Source of the DNA: Bifidobacterium apousia
GTDB taxonomy: Bacteria; Actinomycetota; Actinomycetes; Actinomycetales; Bifidobacteriaceae
NCBI RefSeq assembly: GCF_007559275.1
Contig: NZ_VMHK01000002.1
Coordinates: 434,001-498,000 of the forward strand
Reading direction: 5' to 3'
Length of the DNA: 64,000 bases
Below, piece after piece: positions 1,639 to 55,784 of the stretch (positions are counted from its first letter, which is position 1; the number at the start of each line of letters is the position of its first letter). The position numbers and the translations under genes were made by a program. Below the pieces are notes generated by a model, which ran no database searches, was not told the DNA's origin, and saw only the letters and a list, made by a program, of their open reading frames with translations.

Positions 1639-3354
1639 ATGTCAGCTAAGCCTGATGCCCGTGGAACCGAGGCGACCATCGCGCGCTCGGGCAAGCGCAA
1701 GTGGGGATATGACACCAAGCAGGTGGATGCCTTCCTGGAGCGGGCGCACTCGCTCTATGAGAGCCAGGACCCTGATCTGACCCAGGAAGAGATAGCCAAC
1801 GCCTCCTTCGACCTGTGCAAGAACGGCTACATCATCACCCAGGTGGATGCAGCCCTCTCCCGGCTGGAAAGGGTGATTTCCGACAGGCAGACCAGCCTGG
1901 AGATAGCCCGGGTGGGCGTGGATGGTTGGACGACCAGAATGGTCAGTCTGCAATCCGAGCTGACTACTCATGCCGGCAGGCCTTCGGGCAGCGTCTTCAA
2001 GCGCGGGGATCCCGGCATGCCTTCATACGACTGCAAGCAGGTGGAGCGGCTGATCGAGCAGGTCCTCAACAAGACTTCTGACCAGCTCAACCTGCAGGAG
2101 GGGCGGAAGACGGATTCGGGCAAGTCAAAGAACACCGACATCACGGCTGACCGCGTCTCCAACGTCATCTTCACCCAGCGGCGGGGGCCCAAGGGTTATG
2201 ACGAGCGCCAGGTGGACTTCTTCCTGGCCAAGGCCGTCGAGCTTCTGGAGCAGCTGGAGTCCTTCGCCAGGGTCAGCGAGAGGGCCAAGAGAGCAAGTGC
2301 GAGTTCAACGGCGCCTGCCGCTGTTCCTGCGCAATCGCAGCTTCCTGTGCAGGACTCTTCAGTCTCGGGCGTTCAGCCGCTGATCGGACAGAGTCAGGAA
2401 CCCGCTTGGAGCATCCCCAATGCTTCCCCTGTTGCGGAGGACCAAAGCAGTCAGGACGATTTCGCTCAACTGCATCAGGCGGAACGGGCCATCTTCGATG
2501 CTCCCGCTGCCAGCACGCAGACGGTGCCGACGGCCCAGCCCAACAGCTCCCTGAGTGCCCTGGCTTCAGCGGTCAACCAGCGACTGGCTCAGGACGGCGC
2601 TGGAGCGGCTGTGGATACCGGCGTCACAGGTGCCGGTGCAACGGATGCTGGTACACCTTCAACAGCTTCAGCTCGGTCTGCATCCTCGGTCGATGTCGGC
2701 GCTGGAGCGGCCGCTGCTCCTGCAAATCCGGCTGTCTCCGGTCGGCCTGAATCGGTTATGCCCACCTCTGCGCCAACCAGCTATACTCCTGCAGGCTCAG
2801 CTGCACCCGCGCCGGCTGCGCAATCCATGCCTGTCAACTCGACGGCCTCTTCTTCGCCTTCCCCAGCACCGCAGACTCCTGAGCCGACGGTATTCCAGCC
2901 GACCCCTTCGACACCTGCCGCATCCGCCCCGTCCACATCGACAGGGGCTGCGTTCGTTCCTTCCACAGGTCCGGCATCGCCGGTGCCCCCCTCAACCGAT
3001 GCTGACGCTGACAACTCGTCTGCGCCAGGATCCACCTCAGTTATCTCTTCGCCGTTCGTTGACGGCCCTCTGGGCGCAGGCGGGCCCTTGGGCAGCTATG
3101 CGGAGCCGGCGCCAGCAGCGCCTGAGACCCAGGAGCGTCCCTGGGCCGAAACAGCCGAAAGCAGCACGGATACGCCCGACTGGGCCAAGCCTCGGTACTC
3201 ACAAAACACGCAGGGGAATAAGCAGGCCCAGGATCCGGATTCCTACCTGAACTCCCTGCTCAACCAGGATCTGCCCAAGATGGATCTGGACATCCCCGAT
3301 ATTTCATTCCCAGCCTTCGGTGACGAGGGAGAGCAGGATAAAGGCGGTCGATGA
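1639..3354 (+). CDS. DivIVA-like protein with four DivI1A motifs and Pro/Ala/Ser tail
   Basis: Protein of 571 residues. The first ~210 residues hold four copies of a DivIVA-type helix-start motif (glycine/tyrosine turn followed by QVD and a hydrophobic helix): KWGYDTKQVDAFLERA (21-36), KNGYIITQVDAALSRL (61-76), SYDCKQVERLIEQVL (129-143) and KGYDERQVDFFLAKAV (185-200). Residues ~215-530 are low-complexity Ala/Pro/Ser/Thr and probably disordered. The ATG at 1639 follows AGGAGG at 1623-1628; an open frame reaches back to 1459, but that would overlap the tRNA. It overlaps dxr by 4 nt (ATGA). A role in polar growth or division scaffolding is inferred from the motif only; no enzyme domain is visible. 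Confidence 0.75.
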   Translation: MSAKPDARGTEATIARSGKRKWGYDTKQVDAFLERAHSLYESQDPDLTQEEIANASFDLCKNGYIITQVDAALSRLERVISDRQTSLEIARVGVDGWTTRMVSLQSELTTHAGRPSGSVFKRGDPGMPSYDCKQVERLIEQVLNKTSDQLNLQEGRKTDSGKSKNTDITADRVSNVIFTQRRGPKGYDERQVDFFLAKAVELLEQLESFARVSERAKRASASSTAPAAVPAQSQLPVQDSSVSGVQPLIGQSQEPAWSIPNASPVAEDQSSQDDFAQLHQAERAIFDAPAASTQTVPTAQPNSSLSALASAVNQRLAQDGAGAAVDTGVTGAGATDAGTPSTASARSASSVDVGAGAAAAPANPAVSGRPESVMPTSAPTSYTPAGSAAPAPAAQSMPVNSTASSSPSPAPQTPEPTVFQPTPSTPAASAPSTSTGAAFVPSTGPASPVPPSTDADADNSSAPGSTSVISSPFVDGPLGAGGPLGSYAEPAPAAPETQERPWAETAESSTDTPDWAKPRYSQNTQGNKQAQDPDSYLNSLLNQDLPKMDLDIPDISFPAFGDEGEQDKGGR

Positions 3355-4625
3355 GTCATTTGGCAGTGACGAGTGAAGGAGGGCAGGCCGGTTTGTCGGT
3401 CGAGCGTGAACGCACCTTGGCGGATTGGTCGCCCAGGGCCGATGCTGACCAGTCTCGCAGTCTGGTCATCCTGGGATCCACAGGATCCATCGGTACACAG
3501 GCCTTGGATCTGATCAGTCGTCATAGGGATCGGTTCCAGGTGACTGGATTGGCTGCCGGTGGCGCCCATGTCGAACTGTTGGCCCGTCAGGCCCGTGATT
3601 TTGGCGTGACCCGTCTGGCTCTGGCCGACAGGGCCCAGCTTCCGGCCCTGCAGCAGGCGCTCAAGGCCTTGGGATTGACTGGTATCCAAGTAGAAGCAGG
3701 CATGGAGGCGGTCCAGGCTCTGGCCGGCTCCGGAAGTGATCTGGTCCTCAACGGCATCACCGGATCAGTCGGTCTGCGCCCGTCCATTGCGGCCCTGCAG
3801 GCCGGATCCCAGCTGGCTCTGGCCAACAAGGAGTCCGTGGTGGCCGGCGGCCATCTGCTCTTTGATGCCGAGATACGGCCGGGTCAGATCAACCCGGTCG
3901 ACTCCGAGCATTCGGCCATCTGGCAGTCCCTGCGTTCAGGGCAGCACGGAGAGGTGGCCCGTCTGGTGGTCACCGCTTCTGGCGGTCCCTTCCGGGGCTG
4001 GAGCCGTGACGCTATGCGCCAGGTCACCCCTGAGCAGGCCCTGAACCATCCGACCTGGTCCATGGGGCCGGTGGTCACCATCAACTCCTCCACCATGGTC
4101 AACAAGGGTCTGGAGGTCATCGAGGCCAGCAGGCTCTTCCGGATCGAGCCCGAGAGGATCACCGTGGTGGTTCACCCCCAGTCCGTGGTTCACTCCATGG
4201 TCCAGTTCCAGGACGGGGCCACCATAAGCCAGGCTTCCCCTCCGGATATGCGTCTGCCCATCGCCCTGGGCCTGTCGGCGCCCGTCCGTCTCGACCATGT
4301 GGCTGCGGCCTGCGACTGGTCCAAGTCCAATACCTGGACTTTCGAGCCCTTGGACGACCAGGCCTTCCCGGCGGTCAACCTGGCCAGGCGGGCCCTGGGC
4401 AGCTGCGAGCCCATGACCGCGGTCTTCAATGCCGCCAATGAGCAGGCGGTCAGGGCCTTCCTGGATCACCGGCTGCCCTACCTGGGCATCGTCGAAACCA
4501 TCCGTTCGGTCATGGATGCCATGGAAACGCATCTTCCGGGAACATTCACATCCGTGGAGGTAATGGAGCAAGTCGAGCATGAGGCACGCCAAAGGGCTGA
4601 TGCTTTGATAGACATGACAGCGTGA
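3351..4625 (+). CDS. dxr: 1-deoxy-D-xylulose 5-phosphate reductoisomerase
   Basis: Second step of the MEP isoprenoid pathway: NADPH-dependent conversion of DXP to MEP. Family signatures in order: nucleotide-binding [26 protein letters not shown], metal/substrate loop [20 protein letters not shown], the long motif from HPTWSMGP to KGLEVIEA, and [14 protein letters not shown]. At 424 residues it is ~25-30 longer than usual at the N-terminus. The ATG overlaps the upstream stop, with only AAAGG before it. A much better ribosome site, AAGGAGGG (3376-3383), precedes an in-frame TTG at 3393, giving a 410-residue product closer to family length. Next gene ispG overlaps by 4 nt, so the two are probably co-transcribed. 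Confidence 0.95.
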
Positions 4626-5851
4626 GTAGCATTCCCAAGACCGAACAGTCAACATCCTCCCAGGGGTTCCGCAAGACAGGCGAGCAGGCCATCAGCCAGA
4701 CTCCGCTGCATCCTCGTCGCCGCTCCCGTCGGATCATGGTGGGGCCTGTGCCGGTCGGCGGGGGAGCCCCCATATCGGTGCAGTCCATGACCAACACGGT
4801 CACTGCTGACATCAATGCCACCCTGCAGCAGATCGCCGAGCTGGCCGCCGCCGGCTGCGACATCGTACGGGTGGCCGTACCCAGCCAGGACGATGCCGAC
4901 GCGCTGCCCATCATTGCCAAGAAGTCGCCCATCCCGGTCATCGCCGACATCCACTTCCAGAGCAAGTACGTCTTCCAGGCCATCGATGCCGGCTGTGCAG
5001 CCGTCAGGGTCAACCCGGGCAACATCCGCAAGTTCGACCAGGTCGGCCCCGAGATCTGCAAGGCCGCCACGGATGCAGGCATCTCCCTGCGCATCGGGGT
5101 CAATGCGGGCAGCCTGGACAAGGACATCTACGCCCGCTACGGCGGACCCACCCCCGAGGCCTTGGTCGCCTCGGCCTTGAAAGAGGCCCACATGTTCGAG
5201 GACGTGGGCTTCCATGACTTCAAGATCTCCGTCAAGCACCACGATCCCGTCACCACGGTCCAGACCTACAGGCTCCTGGCCTCCAAGGGCGACTGGCCCC
5301 TGCACCTGGGCGTGACCGAGGCCGGGCCCTCCTGGCAGGGGACCATCAAGTCCTGCCTGGCCTTCGGCGCACTGCTGGCCGAGGGCATCGGCGACACCAT
5401 CAGGGTATCCCTGTCCGCGCCGCCTGTGGAAGAGGTCAAGGTGGGCTGCAAGATCCTCGAGTACCTAGGGCTGCGCCAGCGCCACTTCGACATCATTTCC
5501 TGCCCCTCCTGCGGCAGGGCCCAGGTGGACGTGATCGAGCTGGCCAAGGAGGTCACCGAGGGGCTCAAGGACATCACCGCCCCCATCCGGGTGGCCGTCA
5601 TGGGCTGCATCGTCAACGGACCTGGCGAGGCCAGGGAGGCCGACCTGGGGGTGGCATCGGGCAACGGCAAAGGCCAGATCATCATCAAGGGCAAGGTGGT
5701 GCAGACCGTGCCCGAGGATCAGATCGTCCCCACGCTGCTGGAACGGGCCAAGGAAATCGCCGCCCAGATGGATGCCAAGGCGGCGGCCCAGGGTGAAACC
5801 CTGCCGGAGGCAGGGCCCATGGTGGTCCCGGTCACCGGCCGTGCCAGCTGA
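4622..5851 (+). CDS. ispG: 4-hydroxy-3-methylbut-2-enyl diphosphate synthase (flavodoxin/ferredoxin)
   Basis: Penultimate MEP-pathway enzyme: a 4Fe-4S protein converting MEcPP to HMBPP. TIM-barrel signatures are present ([37 protein letters not shown]). Cluster-ligand cysteines lie in [12 protein letters not shown] and in [13 protein letters not shown]. Length 409 is normal, with a short polar N-terminal extension. Start is GTG at 4622, overlapping the dxr stop (GTGA). Encoded directly after dxr, so two MEP steps are coupled and feed the undecaprenyl synthase further downstream. Confidence 0.96.
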
Positions 5852-5879
5852 GGGCGTAAGCGCCATCCCCGCCACCGGC

Positions 5880-5885
5880 TACAAT
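5880..5885 (+). promoter_or_regulatory. Candidate -10 of a leaderless promoter
   Basis: TACAAT (5880-5885) followed by 7 nt and then an in-frame GTG at 5893. No Shine-Dalgarno is present before either 5884 or 5893. Actinobacterial leaderless genes commonly show TANNNT about 7 nt before the start codon. No good -35 is visible (TAAGCG at 17 bp). Confidence 0.4.
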
Positions 5886-7605
5886 GGCCGACGTGTCCCA
5901 AGAGGTTGAGCGTTCCCTCCCTGCAAGCGGGTGGAGCAGGGTCAGGCGGCTCATGACCAGCCTGCCCGTCTTCATCATCCTCATGGGTCTGCTGGCCTCG
6001 GTCTCCCACTTGACCGCTGTCCCCTGGAAATACGAACCGGTGGATCAGAATTTTCCCACCCTGACTTCGGACACCGCGGTTACCTTCGACTGGCCTGCCG
6101 GGGTTGACAGGGATAACGTGGGGCAGTACGAGGTCGAATCCCGTCACCAGGAACTGAACGTGGAGCGGCCCTCCACTGGCGAGCACCAACGCATCCGAAT
6201 ACTGATTCGCGCTCCCAAGGAGGCTTCAGGGCATCGGCCGGCCGTGGTCTTCATGCACGGCGCAGGTTACGGCACCTGCGACAACTCCTTCGGGGACGTG
6301 GCTCGTACCTTGGCCTCTGCCGGGTTCGTCACCGTCGTGCTGGACAAGCCGGTCTGGTCCACCACGGACGCAGACCGGGACTATCCTGCCTCGGCCAAGG
6401 CTTACGAACGGGTTGCCAATCTGTTGCGCGACCGGGACGATGTGGATGCATCCAAGGTAGGCATCTATGCCACCAGCGAGAGTACTTGGATCGCCGCCAT
6501 GCTGCTGAGCATGGACCACCGGATCGCTTTCCAGATCCTGCTGAGCCCCATGGTCTATTCCCCGCGGCACGCCATGGGCTTCTTCGTAGCCCAGGATTTC
6601 GCCATTGCCGGAGCCAACCAGGGCTACCAGTCGGTGGTCCGTCGGCTCTTCAGCACCGATGCCTCCCTCTTGGGCCTGAATAATCTGGATATCGATCCCA
6701 CCGACCGCAACACCTATGCCATTCCCACCCTGCTGGCCTACGGGGCCAAGGATGTCATGACTGCCCAGGTGGAGGGGGTGCAGCGCGTGCTCTCCCAGGC
6801 CCATGCCTCGGGCAACGAGAACGTCACTGTGCGGTCCTACCCGGTCTCCAACCATGTGCTGCGGCTGGGGGATGAAGCCCGGACCGGCACGCCCCTGGCC
6901 GACCACTACCAGCAGGACATGGTCGACTGGGCGGTGGGTCAGGTCCATGGCCTGCACCAGACCAGCCCCAGCGTGGGTGGGGCCACCATCCACCAGTCCA
7001 TCGCGGTGCCCACTGACCTGCGGGGTCGGCGCTCGCTGACCGTGTACATGCTGGTCCTGCACCTGCTGACCCTGGTGCTTTTGCTGGCATCCCTGGTCAT
7101 GGCCCTGGTGGCCGGGCTGATGAAGTTGTTCCGTCTGCGCCGACGCAAGGATCCGGTCCTGGGCTTCAGCCATGGCTTCGGCGGCACCTTGGTCACCATT
7201 ACCGGCACCACCCTGGCTACCCTGGTCCTTTTCGGAGCTGGTCTGGGTCAGGTCATCATGGCCGTGGTACGCCTGGGCTGGGGCGGCGTGCCCGACCAGG
7301 CTGGAGTCAGCTACTGGAGCTGGCCGGTCATCCAGGTGGTCTGTGCCCTGGTGATCTGGGCCTGGTCGCGCACTTTCGCCCGCATGGTCGAGGTAGCCTC
7401 ACTCAGGGGATTGGACCGGCTGCCCGACCAGGTGCGCACAAGCAAGGCCGGCGGCCCCAGTCTGCGTCAGCAGATGCGGAGCATGGATCCCAGGCCTGTG
7501 CTGGCCTCCACCCGCTTTGGCGTTGCCCTCTTCACCGTTACCACCCTGGCCATGTTCGGGGTCCTGCTGATCTTCGCCTTCTGGGGTCTGTTCATCTACC
7601 AATGA
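5884..7605 (+). CDS. Membrane-anchored alpha/beta hydrolase with polytopic C-terminus
   Basis: Protein of 573 residues. One membrane segment near 27-45, then an alpha/beta-hydrolase domain (~95-365): oxyanion-type VVFMHGAGYG, a nucleophile-elbow region GIYATSESTW (Ser198 or Ser200; the usual GxSxG is degenerate), acid loop YGAKDVMT and histidine loop YPVSNHVLRL. Four further membrane segments follow (~382-412, 428-455, 472-492, 546-571). The predicted active domain is probably outside the cell. Substrate unknown. ATG 5884 lies within a -10-like TACAAT; GTG 5893 may be the true leaderless start. It sits between ispG and recO, which gives no functional clue. Confidence 0.7.
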   Translation: MADVSQEVERSLPASGWSRVRRLMTSLPVFIILMGLLASVSHLTAVPWKYEPVDQNFPTLTSDTAVTFDWPAGVDRDNVGQYEVESRHQELNVERPSTGEHQRIRILIRAPKEASGHRPAVVFMHGAGYGTCDNSFGDVARTLASAGFVTVVLDKPVWSTTDADRDYPASAKAYERVANLLRDRDDVDASKVGIYATSESTWIAAMLLSMDHRIAFQILLSPMVYSPRHAMGFFVAQDFAIAGANQGYQSVVRRLFSTDASLLGLNNLDIDPTDRNTYAIPTLLAYGAKDVMTAQVEGVQRVLSQAHASGNENVTVRSYPVSNHVLRLGDEARTGTPLADHYQQDMVDWAVGQVHGLHQTSPSVGGATIHQSIAVPTDLRGRRSLTVYMLVLHLLTLVLLLASLVMALVAGLMKLFRLRRRKDPVLGFSHGFGGTLVTITGTTLATLVLFGAGLGQVIMAVVRLGWGGVPDQAGVSYWSWPVIQVVCALVIWAWSRTFARMVEVASLRGLDRLPDQVRTSKAGGPSLRQQMRSMDPRPVLASTRFGVALFTVTTLAMFGVLLIFAFWGLFIYQ

Positions 7606-51063: not shown

Positions 51064-51542
51064 CCATGCCAGCACGTTCAGTCCGTTCCAAGGCCTCTCC
51101 GGACAAGGGTCATCCTCGCATCCAGGAGATGCCCACCAGGCCTGAGCTCAGTCTGATCAAGGGCACAGGCAAGGCCCGCCGTCCCGAACGAGGTCCAGTG
51201 GCTGAGGGGGCCCGGCGTCTGATCGGCTGGACGCGGACCCGTGGCAATCCTCTCTTGCGCATCATGGCCTCCGTGATCTTTCTGGCCGCCTGCATGTTCG
51301 GATCCCTGATGCTGCGCACCCAGATGGTCCAGGACTCCTTCGAGGCCACCAGGGTTCAGCATGAAATCAGCAATCTGACCCAGGACGTCCAGGATGACCA
51401 GAACAAGCTCGACCAACTCCAGGCCTCCCTGCCGGACAAGGCCCAGCAGTTGGGCATGCAACCCCAGCAGGGCCTGAACTCCATCGATCTGCAAGGCTAC
51501 AAGCCCCCTCAGGGTGCCCAGGGCAAGGCGGGGCATCCATGA
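51060..51542 (+). CDS. ftsL: FtsL-like septum protein
   Basis: 160-residue bitopic protein: basic cytoplasmic part (1-64), one membrane helix (~65-85) and a short extracellular coiled coil (~88-120) ending in a Gln/Pro/Gly-rich tail. Sequence is poorly conserved across bacteria; the call rests on topology and on position between rsmH and ftsI, where FtsL sits in Gram-positives. ATGA overlaps on both sides. Confidence 0.8.
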   Translation: MTMPARSVRSKASPDKGHPRIQEMPTRPELSLIKGTGKARRPERGPVAEGARRLIGWTRTRGNPLLRIMASVIFLAACMFGSLMLRTQMVQDSFEATRVQHEISNLTQDVQDDQNKLDQLQASLPDKAQQLGMQPQQGLNSIDLQGYKPPQGAQGKAGHP

Positions 51543-53320
51543 GCGGCAAGGGAACCAAACGCTCCTGGCACCTGTCTTTCTGCAAACGTTCCTTGTCTGT
51601 GGGTCTGATTCTGGTCCTGGTGGCCGCCTTGGCCCTGGGTAAGCTGGCCTATATCCAGCTCTTCGACGGAAGGTCCATGGCGCAAGCGGCTGCGGCGGGC
51701 CGCACGGTGCCGCACACCATCAAGGCCCAGCGTGGCCGCATCCTTGATGTCAATGGCCGGGTGCTGGCCCAGAGCCTGGAACGATACAACATCATCGGTG
51801 ATCCCGAGGCGGCCGCATCCTTCATACCTGTCAACTGCACCAAGCGCACAGGCAGTGACTGCCACAGCATCAAGGGGCATCCGGTGGGCGCTGACGGTGC
51901 CGCCGGCGTGGCCCGCCTCTTGGCGCCAGCCTTGGGCATGAACGCCATGGAGCTGGGCGGCAAGCTCAGCGTCCCCGGACGGTACGTGGTCTTGGCCAAG
52001 CGGGTGACTCCCGAGGTCAAGCGCTCCATCGACAAGCTGGGGCTGCAGGGGATCATCACGGCAGAGCTGAGCAGCGAACGCACGTATCCGCATGCGGATC
52101 TGATGGGAGCCCTGATCGGGGGCATCGACGACAGCGGCAAGGGCGTGGCCGGGATCGAGCAGATGGAGAACCGGCAGCTGACCGGCTCTGACGGCTACAC
52201 GGTCTACCAGCAGGGGATGCTTGGCCAGGAGATCCCCGGAACCGTGACCCGTCAGCGCAATCCGGTCAACGGCAAGGATGTGACCCTGACCGTTGATCAG
52301 GACGTTCAGTGGTACGTCCGTCAGGCCCTCAAGTCGGGCTGCCAGCGCTTTCATGCCGACTGGGCCCTGGCCGTCGTCCAGGACACCCGCACCAACGAGA
52401 TCCTGGCCCTGGCCGACACTGACGATTACCAGGCTGGCAGCGACCAGGCCAAGGTCAACTCCTCGCGGGCGGTGGCGGAGACCTTCGAGCCCGGCTCCAT
52501 CGGCAAGACCATCTCGATCTCCGGCATGCTTCAGGAGCAGGTGCACTCCATGAGCGACCGCTTCACTGTGCCCGACCACATCACCGTGGACAACCAGCAG
52601 TACAAGGATGCCTTCGACCATCCAGCCGAGCACTGGACCCTTGCCGGCATTCTGCAGAACTCCTCCAACGTGGGCATGGTCATGGCCGGCGAACACTACC
52701 CGGATCAGAAGCGCTACGACTATCTGACCCGCTTTGGCATCGGCCAGGCCTCGTCCCTGGGCCTGCCGGGGGAGTCCAAGGGCCTGCTGACTTCGCCTCA
52801 GACCTGGGACCGACGCACGCGCAACACGGTATTGTTCGGCCAGGGCTACGCCACCAACGCCATCCAGCTGACCAACGTCATCGCCACCCTGGCCAACAAG
52901 GGGGTCCGGGCCGACCAGACCATCATCCGCGGCCAGGATGCCGTCAACGCCAACCGGGTGAGGGTAGTGGACGAGAAGGTGGCGGCTACGGTCATGAACG
53001 GCATGGAGTCGGTGGCTGAAAAGTACCAGAATACAGCCAAGGTGGATGGCTATCGGGTGGCTTCCAAGACCGGCACCGCCGAGGTGGCCGACAGCTCGGG
53101 CGGCCTGGGCGGCATCATCAGCGACTGGGTGGGCATCCTGCCTGCTGACGATCCCCATTATGTCGTCACCGTAGTCCTGAAGAATCCCCACAGCAGCGAT
53201 GGCGTTTTCGGCAGCATCACCGCCGGCCCCATCTTCGCTCAGATCGGTGAATTCCTTATGCAGAAATACCAGGTCCCCACGTCTGCGCCCAGAACCGATG
53301 CTATCCCGGTAACATGGTGA
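51539..53320 (+). CDS. ftsI: Septal peptidoglycan transpeptidase (class B PBP, FtsI/PBP3)
   Basis: Cross-links septal peptidoglycan with FtsW. N-terminal membrane helix (~18-40), PBP dimer domain starting AQRGRILDVNGRVLA, transpeptidase with Ser320 in EPGSIGK (SxxK), S375-S-N (SxN) and K510-T-G. No PASTA domains. 593 residues. Contains the Cys pair VNCTKRTGSDC in the dimer domain. Overlaps ftsL by 4 nt. Confidence 0.94.
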   Translation: MSGKGTKRSWHLSFCKRSLSVGLILVLVAALALGKLAYIQLFDGRSMAQAAAAGRTVPHTIKAQRGRILDVNGRVLAQSLERYNIIGDPEAAASFIPVNCTKRTGSDCHSIKGHPVGADGAAGVARLLAPALGMNAMELGGKLSVPGRYVVLAKRVTPEVKRSIDKLGLQGIITAELSSERTYPHADLMGALIGGIDDSGKGVAGIEQMENRQLTGSDGYTVYQQGMLGQEIPGTVTRQRNPVNGKDVTLTVDQDVQWYVRQALKSGCQRFHADWALAVVQDTRTNEILALADTDDYQAGSDQAKVNSSRAVAETFEPGSIGKTISISGMLQEQVHSMSDRFTVPDHITVDNQQYKDAFDHPAEHWTLAGILQNSSNVGMVMAGEHYPDQKRYDYLTRFGIGQASSLGLPGESKGLLTSPQTWDRRTRNTVLFGQGYATNAIQLTNVIATLANKGVRADQTIIRGQDAVNANRVRVVDEKVAATVMNGMESVAEKYQNTAKVDGYRVASKTGTAEVADSSGGLGGIISDWVGILPADDPHYVVTVVLKNPHSSDGVFGSITAGPIFAQIGEFLMQKYQVPTSAPRTDAIPVTW

Positions 53321-53366
53321 TACCGGCAGGCATCATGGCGTTCCCGGACGAAGGAGAGATTGCAGC

Positions 53367-54248
53367 ATGAGTGCGCTGAGTGAATCAATCTCCCGACGGT
53401 TGACCCTGGGTCAGCTCAAAGGACGCTACGGGCTGACCCTGGTCCCCGATTTCGCTGAACCAGTTACGGTGACCTCACTGGTGGACGACCTGCCCTCAGT
53501 GCGGCCCGGCAGTCTGTATGTGCCAGCAGACCAGCAGGTGGACCAGGGCATGATCGAGGAGGCCGAGCGTCGAGGGGCCTACGCAGCCCTGCTGCCGACC
53601 TCGGCCCGTCAACAGGTGGGACGAGCCCGCATACCCCTGCTCTTCGGCACCATGCACGCCTGGCAGATGGGCCAGCTGCTGTCCAATGCCGCAGGGGACC
53701 CTTCGGGAGCCCTGGCCGTCTTCGCCCTGGTCGGTTCCCAGGTGCAGGAGCAGGTGGATCTCTTGGCCGACTTCCTGCACGTGCTGGGCAATCCCGTCGG
53801 CATTCTCAGCTCCAAGGGTTCGTACTCGCTGGACCGGCGACTGGACCTGGAATATCCCCTGAGCATGTTCGATGTGCAACGCAGTCTGTCCATCGCCCTG
53901 GAGGACGGGGCGGCCGCCGTGGTCATCTCCGTGGACGAACAGACCCTGGCCAGGGATGCCCTGCAGGCGGTGGATCTGGATGTAGTGGCCCTGGGCGCCC
54001 AGGAGGGCTCCACGCGCGATATGCGGCACGTACGGCTGATCTCCAGGGCCCGCCGATATGGGTTCAGCCTGGGCGGGCACACCATCGTAGCCCGGCGCAA
54101 CGAGGAATCCGACGGGCTGGCCCGGCAGTCCCTGCCCGCCGAGGCACAGAGCGACGACCTGTCCCTGTGCATCGCCATGACCATGGCCGCCGGCGTCAAA
54201 CGCAACAACATCAGGAGCGCCCTGCGCGTCTCCCGCGAAATGTCCTGA
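53367..54248 (+). CDS. MurE-like pseudoenzyme in the murE position
   Basis: 293 residues between ftsI and murF, where murE normally sits. Residues ~33-80 look like the MurE N-terminal domain (VTSLVDDLPSVRPGSLYVPA...GMIEEAERRGAYAALLP). Residues ~117-150 align by eye with the MurE ATP-binding strand and helix, but the P-loop GTNGKT is replaced by LVGSQVQEQ. The expected VSSHAL reads ISVDEQTL, and the FTNL-RDHLDYH block is missing. It ends with a helix like the Mur ligase AAIA-LGI segment, and there is no ligase C-terminal domain. ATG 53367 has AAGGAGAG. So it is unlikely to be a working ligase; the ORF is intact, arguing for a retained structural or regulatory role. Confidence 0.65.
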   Translation: MSALSESISRRLTLGQLKGRYGLTLVPDFAEPVTVTSLVDDLPSVRPGSLYVPADQQVDQGMIEEAERRGAYAALLPTSARQQVGRARIPLLFGTMHAWQMGQLLSNAAGDPSGALAVFALVGSQVQEQVDLLADFLHVLGNPVGILSSKGSYSLDRRLDLEYPLSMFDVQRSLSIALEDGAAAVVISVDEQTLARDALQAVDLDVVALGAQEGSTRDMRHVRLISRARRYGFSLGGHTIVARRNEESDGLARQSLPAEAQSDDLSLCIAMTMAAGVKRNNIRSALRVSREMS

Positions 54249-54257
54249 GAGGTGAGG

Positions 54258-55784
54258 ATGAGTCAGTCTGTAGGGGCCGGGTCCATGCCCATGACCCTGG
54301 AAGAGGTCGTCGAATATGTGCACGGTCGGCTGGTCGAGGTCAGTCCTGGTCACGAATCCGACCAGCGGTCCGTGCGCATGCGGGTGGTGACCGACTCCCG
54401 TCAGGCCAAGCCCGATGGACTCTTCGTAGCCATCAAGGGCGAGCACGTGGATGGCCATGACTATGTTCCCGGCCTGGGAGCCAAGGGCTGCCGGGCGGCC
54501 CTAGTCGACCATCTCGTTCCGGGCGCTGACCTGCCCCAAATTCTTGTGGACGATACGGTTGACGCCTTGGGGCTGCTGGCCCGGGCCAGCATAGACCGTC
54601 GGCGCGCAGCGTCAGAACCCTTTACGGTAATTGGCATCACCGGATCCGTCGGCAAGACCACCACCAAGGATCTGCTGTCCTCTCTGCTGGCACTCCTGGG
54701 TCCGGTGGTGGCCCCTGTCGGGTCTTTCAACAACGAGATCGGCCTTCCTCTGACAGCCTTGGAGGTCGGGCCTGACACCCGGTATCTGGTGGCCGAGATG
54801 GGTGCCAACCACCTGGGTGAGATCGCCCGGCTGACCACAATGGTTCCTCCGGACATGGCTCTGGTCCTCAAGGTAGGAGTGGCCCACCTGGGCGAATTCG
54901 GCTCCGTGGATCGCATCGCCCAGGCCAAGAGCGAGATCGTGCAGGGTCTGGTGCCGGGCGGGACCGCCGTGCTCAACGCAGACGATTCCCGGGTGGCTGC
55001 CATGGCTGATCTGGCCTCTGGCCCTGTTCTGCGGTTTGGCATGGCCGCTGAGGACGGCGGTCAGGACCGCAGCCTGGACGGCTCGGCTCGCTACCTTGAC
55101 AGCGACAGCCTGGACAGGCCGGCCTTCGAGCTGCGTCTGCCTGGCCAGCAACCAGTGCGGTTGCGTCTGGGCATCCCGGGGCGGCACAATGTCATGAACG
55201 CCCTGGCTGCCGCCACGGTAGCCCACGCTCTGGGTCTGGACGCAGGGCGCATCGCCGATGAGCTGGGTCGACAGCGGCAGATCAGCCCGCATCGGATGGC
55301 CCTGTCTTCGGTCCGGCTGCCGGATGCCTCCTTCACCCTGATTGACGATTCCTTCAACGCCAATCCCGACTCCGTGCGGGCCGGTCTGGACGCTCTGGCC
55401 GCCTGGAGGGGATCCGACGGTCCGGTCTATCGTATAGCTGTCCTGGGGGTCATGCTTGAGCTGGGCGGCCAAGGGGAGCGGCTGCACCAGGAGATCGGCG
55501 CCTACTGCCGTCGGTTGGGCATTGATGCATTGGTCGCGGTGGGCTGCCGGGATCAGCAGATGGACGGGTTGGTTCATGCCCTTGTCCGTGGCGCTGGCGG
55601 CCTATCTGGTCGGAGTGAGGAACAGCCTGGGGCCATGCGCGTCCTCTTCGCCCAGGATGCTGACCAGGCCGATCACATGGTTCGCCGCCTATGCGCCAAG
55701 CATCCTGACCGGCAAAATCTTGTCCTGCTCAAGGGCTCGCACATGTCCGGCCTGTCCGGTCTGGCCGACCGGTGGCAGGGCTGA
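54258..55784 (+). CDS. murF: UDP-MurNAc-tripeptide:D-Ala-D-Ala ligase
   Basis: Adds D-Ala-D-Ala to the UDP-MurNAc-tripeptide. N-terminal VVTDSRQAKPDGLFVAIKGE, ATP loop GITGSVGKTTTKDLL, NNEIGLPLTAL, VAEMGANHLGEIA, NADDSR and C-terminal DDSFNANPDSVRAGL. 508 residues. ATG 54258 after GAGAGG; GTG 54252 possible. A true murE must lie elsewhere in the genome to supply its substrate. Confidence 0.95.
   Translation: MSQSVGAGSMPMTLEEVVEYVHGRLVEVSPGHESDQRSVRMRVVTDSRQAKPDGLFVAIKGEHVDGHDYVPGLGAKGCRAALVDHLVPGADLPQILVDDTVDALGLLARASIDRRRAASEPFTVIGITGSVGKTTTKDLLSSLLALLGPVVAPVGSFNNEIGLPLTALEVGPDTRYLVAEMGANHLGEIARLTTMVPPDMALVLKVGVAHLGEFGSVDRIAQAKSEIVQGLVPGGTAVLNADDSRVAAMADLASGPVLRFGMAAEDGGQDRSLDGSARYLDSDSLDRPAFELRLPGQQPVRLRLGIPGRHNVMNALAAATVAHALGLDAGRIADELGRQRQISPHRMALSSVRLPDASFTLIDDSFNANPDSVRAGLDALAAWRGSDGPVYRIAVLGVMLELGGQGERLHQEIGAYCRRLGIDALVAVGCRDQQMDGLVHALVRGAGGLSGRSEEQPGAMRVLFAQDADQADHMVRRLCAKHPDRQNLVLLKGSHMSGLSGLADRWQG

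Follow-up and report, generated by a model that had tools for sequence, protein, structure and literature searches.

It has long been asked whether the Mur enzymes act in cells as an ordered complex. PAP11, the MurE-like subunit of the plastid RNA polymerase (8r6s, 8xzv, 8w9z), offers an earlier example of a MurE body serving a structural purpose, and in MurE-MurF units (8f5d; NF008896) MurE is joined to MurF. The window, i.e., the whole stretch of 64,000 nucleotides of Bifidobacterium apousia DNA analysed here, carries in its dcw cluster a gene for a MurE remnant, termed pseudo-MurE. This protein is a MurE under selection from which the entire C-terminal domain and the residues for catalysis and substrate binding have gone. 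The role proposed for it resembles that of PAP11 in placing a MurE body in a multiprotein complex, and PAP11 was the top Foldseek match of the pseudo-MurE model; PAP11, in contrast, has a chain of 768-774 aa and belongs to a chloroplast transcription complex. Whereas NF008896 is described as bifunctional, no pseudo-MurE-MurF fusion was present in nine loci read, six of which had been picked for long frames.

The first-pass annotation had placed an intact 293-residue gene in the murE slot between ftsI and murF, and this was borne out: the frame starts with ATG, is uninterrupted and encodes 293 aa. The gene and its immediate surroundings are as follows.

51539..53320, plus strand: ftsI, upstream neighbour of pseudo-MurE
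53351..53358, plus strand: ribosome-binding site AAGGAGAG, 8 nt upstream of the pseudo-MurE ATG, read from the sequence
53367..54248, plus strand: pseudo-MurE gene (ORF and sequence, family-wide conservation, profile, fold and tree)
54252..55784, plus strand: murF, downstream neighbour of pseudo-MurE, with all three Mur ligase domains (Pfam)

Pseudo-MurE is separated from ftsI by 46 nt and from the start of murF, as called, by 3 nt. The cluster in the window reads mraZ, rsmH, ftsL, ftsI, pseudo-MurE, murF, mraY, murD, ftsW, murG and murC, and probably continues with ftsQ; we assigned these names by inspecting the translations and comparing the order with that in relatives, Pfam having been run on murF only. 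The surroundings were compared in 164 loci from 162 distinct genomes (L115 and L116 duplicate L037 and L039), with MurF at most 600 nt downstream of pseudo-MurE in all 164 and FtsI at most 600 nt upstream in 162. Nine of the ten named relatives found are Bifidobacterium mellis, B. asteroides and close species (92-97% protein identity), and the tenth is B. [indicum] (73%). Apparent fusions to MurF or FtsI in six genomes (G090, G098, G145, G078, G056 and G082) were rejected as stop-to-stop frames overlapping the neighbouring genes. In deep genera, divergent frames of 500-560 aa that resembled MurE were likewise rejected as full-length intermediates, being MurF and MurD frames; measured between stops, pseudo-MurE in those genera has 284-437 aa. 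Inserts of low complexity, tens of residues long, were observed near residue 54 or 212 in separate lineages (L036-L043, L103-L105). Searches of the open literature returned no description of pseudo-MurE, and the main text of the B. breve TraDIS paper (PMC5514069) contains no word beginning in mur.

The relationship to MurE was assessed with sequence profiles, a structural model and a tree. Pfam gave no match for the window protein at E up to 10, and none of the 28 members of the family alignment (window protein included) matched a Mur family, five stray weak matches being obtained. The NCBIfam matches were weak, to NF008896 (MurE/MurF, E 1.2e-5) and to TIGR01085 (E 7e-4), the latter with 18.6 bits and thus below its curated cut-off of 257.3. 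In the PDB, Mtb MurE was matched at E 3e-4 with the single sequence and at 2.9e-15 with the 28-member family profile, which also matched PAP11 (3.9e-15) and a MurF (3.6e-5). Profile comparison by hhalign gave E 3.7e-22 against the dcw MurE of nine outgroup loci, which come from other families within the order, 1.6e-8 against the genome's own MurE type and 3.8e-6 against MurF. The genome's own type is named MurE2 here, meaning the complete MurE encoded elsewhere in the genomes that carry pseudo-MurE (carriers). Profile columns 12-302 of 325, which correspond to residues 12-293 of the window protein, were aligned with MurE columns 33-373 of 548; the alignment included a deletion inside domain 2 and stopped at the boundary of domains 2 and 3. 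The AlphaFold2 model of pseudo-MurE (mean pLDDT 92.0, pTM 0.89) had the Mur fold, and Foldseek ranked PAP11 (8r6s, E 1e-14) and Mtb MurE first, followed by E. coli MurE, with the first MurF at rank 31. By both the hhalign E values and the Foldseek ranking, homology to MurE exceeds that to MurF.

In a tree of 208 columns, pseudo-MurE joined dcw MurE at 94/87 on a long stem (1.8). Grouping it with MurE2 or with MurF was not rejected in the same tree (p-AU 0.152 and 0.137). For the remainder, the argument for descent relies on synteny and shared residues. All 11 outgroup loci read, the best-matching ones, hold an ordinary MurE between FtsI and MurF. Moreover, A71, P90, G141, E179, V206 and M271 of pseudo-MurE are dcw MurE residues in 9/9 rows and are not fixed among 17 other MurE rows. 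With dcw MurE of the same taxonomic order, pseudo-MurE shares these six residues, the cluster slot and the fold of domains 1 and 2; it differs from it in lacking the P-loop, the TTP/SSHA/R substrate residues, the carbamyl-lysine block and the C-terminal domain. The descent from murE that had been suggested from the sequence is thus supported by hhalign, fold, slot and shared residues, and descent from the ancestral MurE of the same cluster slot is well supported but not proved.

The domains and motifs of MurE were located in the window copy as listed below.

53367..53705, plus strand: what is left of the N-terminal, UDP-binding domain of MurE, residues 1 to about 113, border approximate (hhalign and column table)
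53706..54245, plus strand: shrunken MurE central domain, about residues 114-293, ending with MurE domain 2 (hhalign)
53730..53753, plus strand: former P-loop, VGSQVQEQ, residues 122-129, highly variable in relatives except G123
53850..53858, plus strand: residues 162-164, EYP in place of the TTP substrate motif, with the P kept in 163/164
53901..53909, plus strand: EDG, residues 179-181, the E present in 9/9 dcw MurE rows and in 1/17 other MurE rows
53934..53948, plus strand: residues 190-194, DEQTL in place of the SSHAL substrate motif (column table)
54150..54242, plus strand: conserved C-terminal helix pair, matching the last helices of MurE domain 2 (hhalign and model)

Across the family, 164 pseudo-MurE copies were tabulated at positions fixed in 26/26 canonical MurE rows. 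The P-loop G..GK[ST] was found in 0/164 copies. The canonical residues T174, T175, S201, S202, R209 and the P-loop lysine are replaced, the commonest residues in pseudo-MurE being A/C/V at T131, D/Q at K136, E/T/D and Y at the two threonines of TTP, D and D/E at the two serines of SS, and A at R209; the window copy reads E-Y-P, D-E-Q-T and A at the TTP, SSxA and R positions. H231, Y237 and K241 of the carbamylated-lysine block (DHLD.H...Y..K) correspond to gaps in the window copy. The C-terminal Mur ligase domain is absent, the protein ending with domain 2 and giving no Pfam Mur_ligase_C match. The first-pass annotation had read the motifs correctly, with GTNGKT changed to GSQVQEQ (residues 123-129), SSHAL to DEQTL, and the RDHLDYH block and C-terminal ligase domain missing (hhalign and column table), and the loss of catalytic residues that it described is supported. 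Judged by these residues, Mur ligase activity of pseudo-MurE is very unlikely.

In the alignment, 115/164 copies have a gap where canonical MurE has the invariant G63; the loop around this position is not kept, and inserts tens of residues long occur nearby in several lineages. Together with the replaced substrate and ATP positions, this indicated that the ATP site and the UDP-sugar site have both lost their known form. These losses bear on the idea that pseudo-MurE binds UDP-MurNAc peptide or a nucleotide and reports the level of wall precursors. The UDP-binding domain of MurE is retained as a fold in the model and in the Foldseek matches, which would suit such a sensor, but the residues for ATP and substrate are replaced, deleted or very variable, and the G63 position is mostly gapped and carries inserts in some lineages. 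We regard a small-molecule sensor as decidedly unlikely, and the nucleotide-sugar sensor put forward from the sequence is not supported.

The gene was present in 27/27 genomes of the genus and in 177/189 genomes of the family, including all 161 of high quality (>=90% complete, <=5% contaminated), and no internal stops occurred among the matches listed in the genus and family searches. The conserved open frame and its presence in relatives across Bifidobacteriaceae were thereby confirmed. For 78 pairs from the asteroides group, dN/dS, calculated as a ratio of means, was 0.057 for pseudo-MurE compared with 0.107 for FtsI and 0.122 for MurF, the latter two each sampled in part. For 45 disjoint close pairs outside the genus, the median was 0.145 for pseudo-MurE, 0.134 for FtsI and 0.178 for MurF, with pseudo-MurE below MurF in 27 pairs and below FtsI in 10. 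The medians of 1821 pairs outside the genus (FtsI 0.476, pseudo-MurE 0.559 with a maximum of 1.262, MurF 0.377) were unusable, since dS near saturation lifts all three genes at such distances, and the close pairs were relied on instead. These demonstrated that evolution of pseudo-MurE is constrained rather than relaxed, at a level comparable to that of its neighbours without in general exceeding it. At distances between genera, pseudo-MurE diverges more rapidly than the enzymes (mean distance 1.28 vs 0.45-0.86). A chance ORF or a pseudogene was rejected on the basis of conservation and dN/dS.

The selection data also concern a reading in which the protein is a by-product and the frame persists because it couples the translation of murF within the operon. 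The short distance to murF in the window and the presence of murF close downstream in every locus would agree with coupling. However, purifying selection acts on the amino acids about as strongly as in the neighbours, conserved residues are distributed along the whole protein in the 164 copies, and the model is a confident, compact fold. Moreover, the sister genera, which have another MurE type, do without the gene: in the five of their loci with both neighbours readable (non-carriers L107, L117, L118, L249 and L251), FtsI directly precedes MurF. A by-product is therefore highly improbable.

The distribution of the gene was followed through the order. In a profile search of 119 genomes, the 9 with a match to the protein belong to Bifidobacteriaceae, 37 had no match, and the matches of the other 73 (E up to 1e-3) lay in frames of at least 431 aa and not in a short protein. 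The 12 genomes of the family without pseudo-MurE were also empty in a profile search at E up to 1, an absence that is less sure as all are <90% complete. A tree of FtsI and MurF was built from 37 rows, namely 20 carriers, 6 non-carriers and 11 outgroup loci. The carriers formed one clade (100/100), with the non-carriers beside them (89/81; the branch of L121 is very long, and three rows cover 31% of the columns) and the outgroups outside (97/97). In the genomes sampled, pseudo-MurE is confined to one clade, consistent with a single origin at the root of the main Bifidobacteriaceae.

A complete murE was indeed found elsewhere in the genome. MurE2 of the window genome (C7:540847) lies about 43 kb beyond the window; the protein (L002) has 522 aa, the domains Mur_ligase_M and Mur_ligase_C and, by eye, the P-loop and substrate motifs, and MurE2 formed a separate clade (100/100) in the 208-column tree. 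Both proteins belong to the MurE family, but MurE2, unlike pseudo-MurE, has the motifs and the Mur_ligase_C domain and is encoded outside the cluster. The MurE type, read by eye, was GTKGK in 17/17 carriers and GTDGK in 8/8 non-carriers. A MurE2 match of at least 415 bits was obtained in 23 of 24 further carriers; in the remaining one, G171, the best match reached only 312 bits, either because its MurE has diverged or because the assembly is incomplete (87%). Among 12 non-carriers, nine gave at most 245 bits, two gave no match and G162 gave 763 bits. The assembly of G162 is 76% complete and has no match to pseudo-MurE or MurF; the region may be missing from it, so G162 is no counter-example. 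The cluster MurE has thus lost catalysis where a different MurE is encoded elsewhere, in line with one historical event.

Some further Mur-type genes were observed in these genomes. In the window genome, MurE2 is located between a DNA polymerase III epsilon-like and an ATP-grasp-like gene (L124, G000:C7:536000-552000, at 2928-7461), and the gene order is similar in L064; these surroundings are possibly a wall-type cassette. A search for a D-Asp ligase beside MurE2 gave sub-threshold ATP-grasp matches only, and the gene of the window genome had no PDB match. Tandem pairs of MurE2-type genes are present at G045:C1:716187-719343 and G160:C32:52753-55874. A further Mur-ligase-type gene (L004, G000:C6:209159-209824) lies next to a DnaB-like helicase gene and looks like MurT, both names having been given by eye.

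Covariation of evolutionary rates was analysed in 15 genomes. Residual correlations with pseudo-MurE were weak for FtsI (0.33), FtsW (0.32), MurG (0.31) and MurE2 (0.28), and no link was seen to MurF (-0.20), MurD (-0.10), MraY (0.00) or MurC (0.08); as a partner finder, rate covariation was uninformative. The higher value for MurE2 than for MurF, the pairing of pseudo-MurE with the GTKGK type and the strong MurE2 matches of 23 of the 24 further carriers are what might be seen if the dead MurE paired with the live one, as an allosteric partner or stabiliser of MurE2 specifically. The co-occurrence may, however, go back to a single event because the carriers are one clade, MurE2 is encoded about 43 kb beyond the window in this genome, the rate signal is weak, and the best MurE2 match of the carrier G171 has only 312 bits. 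A dedicated MurE2 partner is in our opinion doubtful.

The genus g12 (G174-G180), with genomes of 0.6-0.9 Mb, has a reduced cluster. In the two loci read (L099 and L100) the order is rsmH, pseudo-MurE, murF, mraY, murD, murG and murC, with ftsL, ftsI and ftsW absent. One SEDS gene, close to a transpeptidase gene, was found in each of 6/7 genomes and none in G176, whose assembly is 87% complete. There are at most two transpeptidases per genome, and a tubulin/FtsZ match was obtained in 7/7; division in g12 may proceed without an FtsI/FtsW pair of its own. All seven genomes retain pseudo-MurE, even though the cluster has lost ftsI and ftsW in both loci read, which ties the protein to precursor synthesis more than to septal synthesis. 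This weakens the view that the protein belongs with the division machinery (FtsI/FtsW) and not with precursor synthesis, for which the near-constant ftsI neighbour and the weak rate correlations with FtsI and FtsW could be cited; we consider such a division role unlikely.

Newly conserved residues were examined in the same 164 copies. One conserved block is new:

53778..53795, plus strand: conserved block HVLGNP, residues 138-143 (column table, 164 copies)

In this block, H138 is found in 163/164 copies, L140 in 162/164, and G141, N142 and P143 in 164/164 each; outside it, Y72 is invariant (164/164). Canonical MurE varies at the positions of Y72, H138, N142 and P143. According to the model, the HxLGNP loop would sit at the end of the helix leaving the former P-loop, on the side of the sheet opposite the old active site. 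Since the P-loop positions vary freely while Y72, N142 and P143 are invariant, a binding surface is indicated rather than a ligand site. Free variation of the active site combined with invariance elsewhere is the pattern expected of a binding partner, and argues for one.

Our preferred reading, to which we give a probability of roughly 0.55, is that the old dcw MurE lost catalysis and is now a non-catalytic adaptor in the cytoplasmic assembly of lipid-II precursors. The observations suggest that an enzyme became a structural helper once its reaction had passed to another MurE. Catalysis would have been transferred to MurE2, and the old protein body would have persisted, we propose, because other proteins docked on it. 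The docking surface would be marked by Y72 and the HxLGNP loop. The contact would most plausibly be MurF, perhaps with recruitment of MurE2 or MurG; MurF comes first among the candidates since MurE is joined to MurF in other systems (title of 8f5d; NF008896). The MurF/MraY scaffold suggested by the first-pass annotation would fit the constant adjacency of murF, but not the rate covariation. More tentatively, the displaced MurE might have been rebuilt as a docking subunit that acts as a frame for its replacement and for MurF and is needed for growth in the family.

The finding adds a protein family without a Pfam Mur match inside one of the most studied bacterial gene clusters. A member of the row that is kept without its catalytic residues, even in the 0.6-0.9 Mb genomes of g12 with neither FtsI nor FtsW in the cluster, separates structure from chemistry, and the question of the Mur complex becomes testable in a gut commensal.
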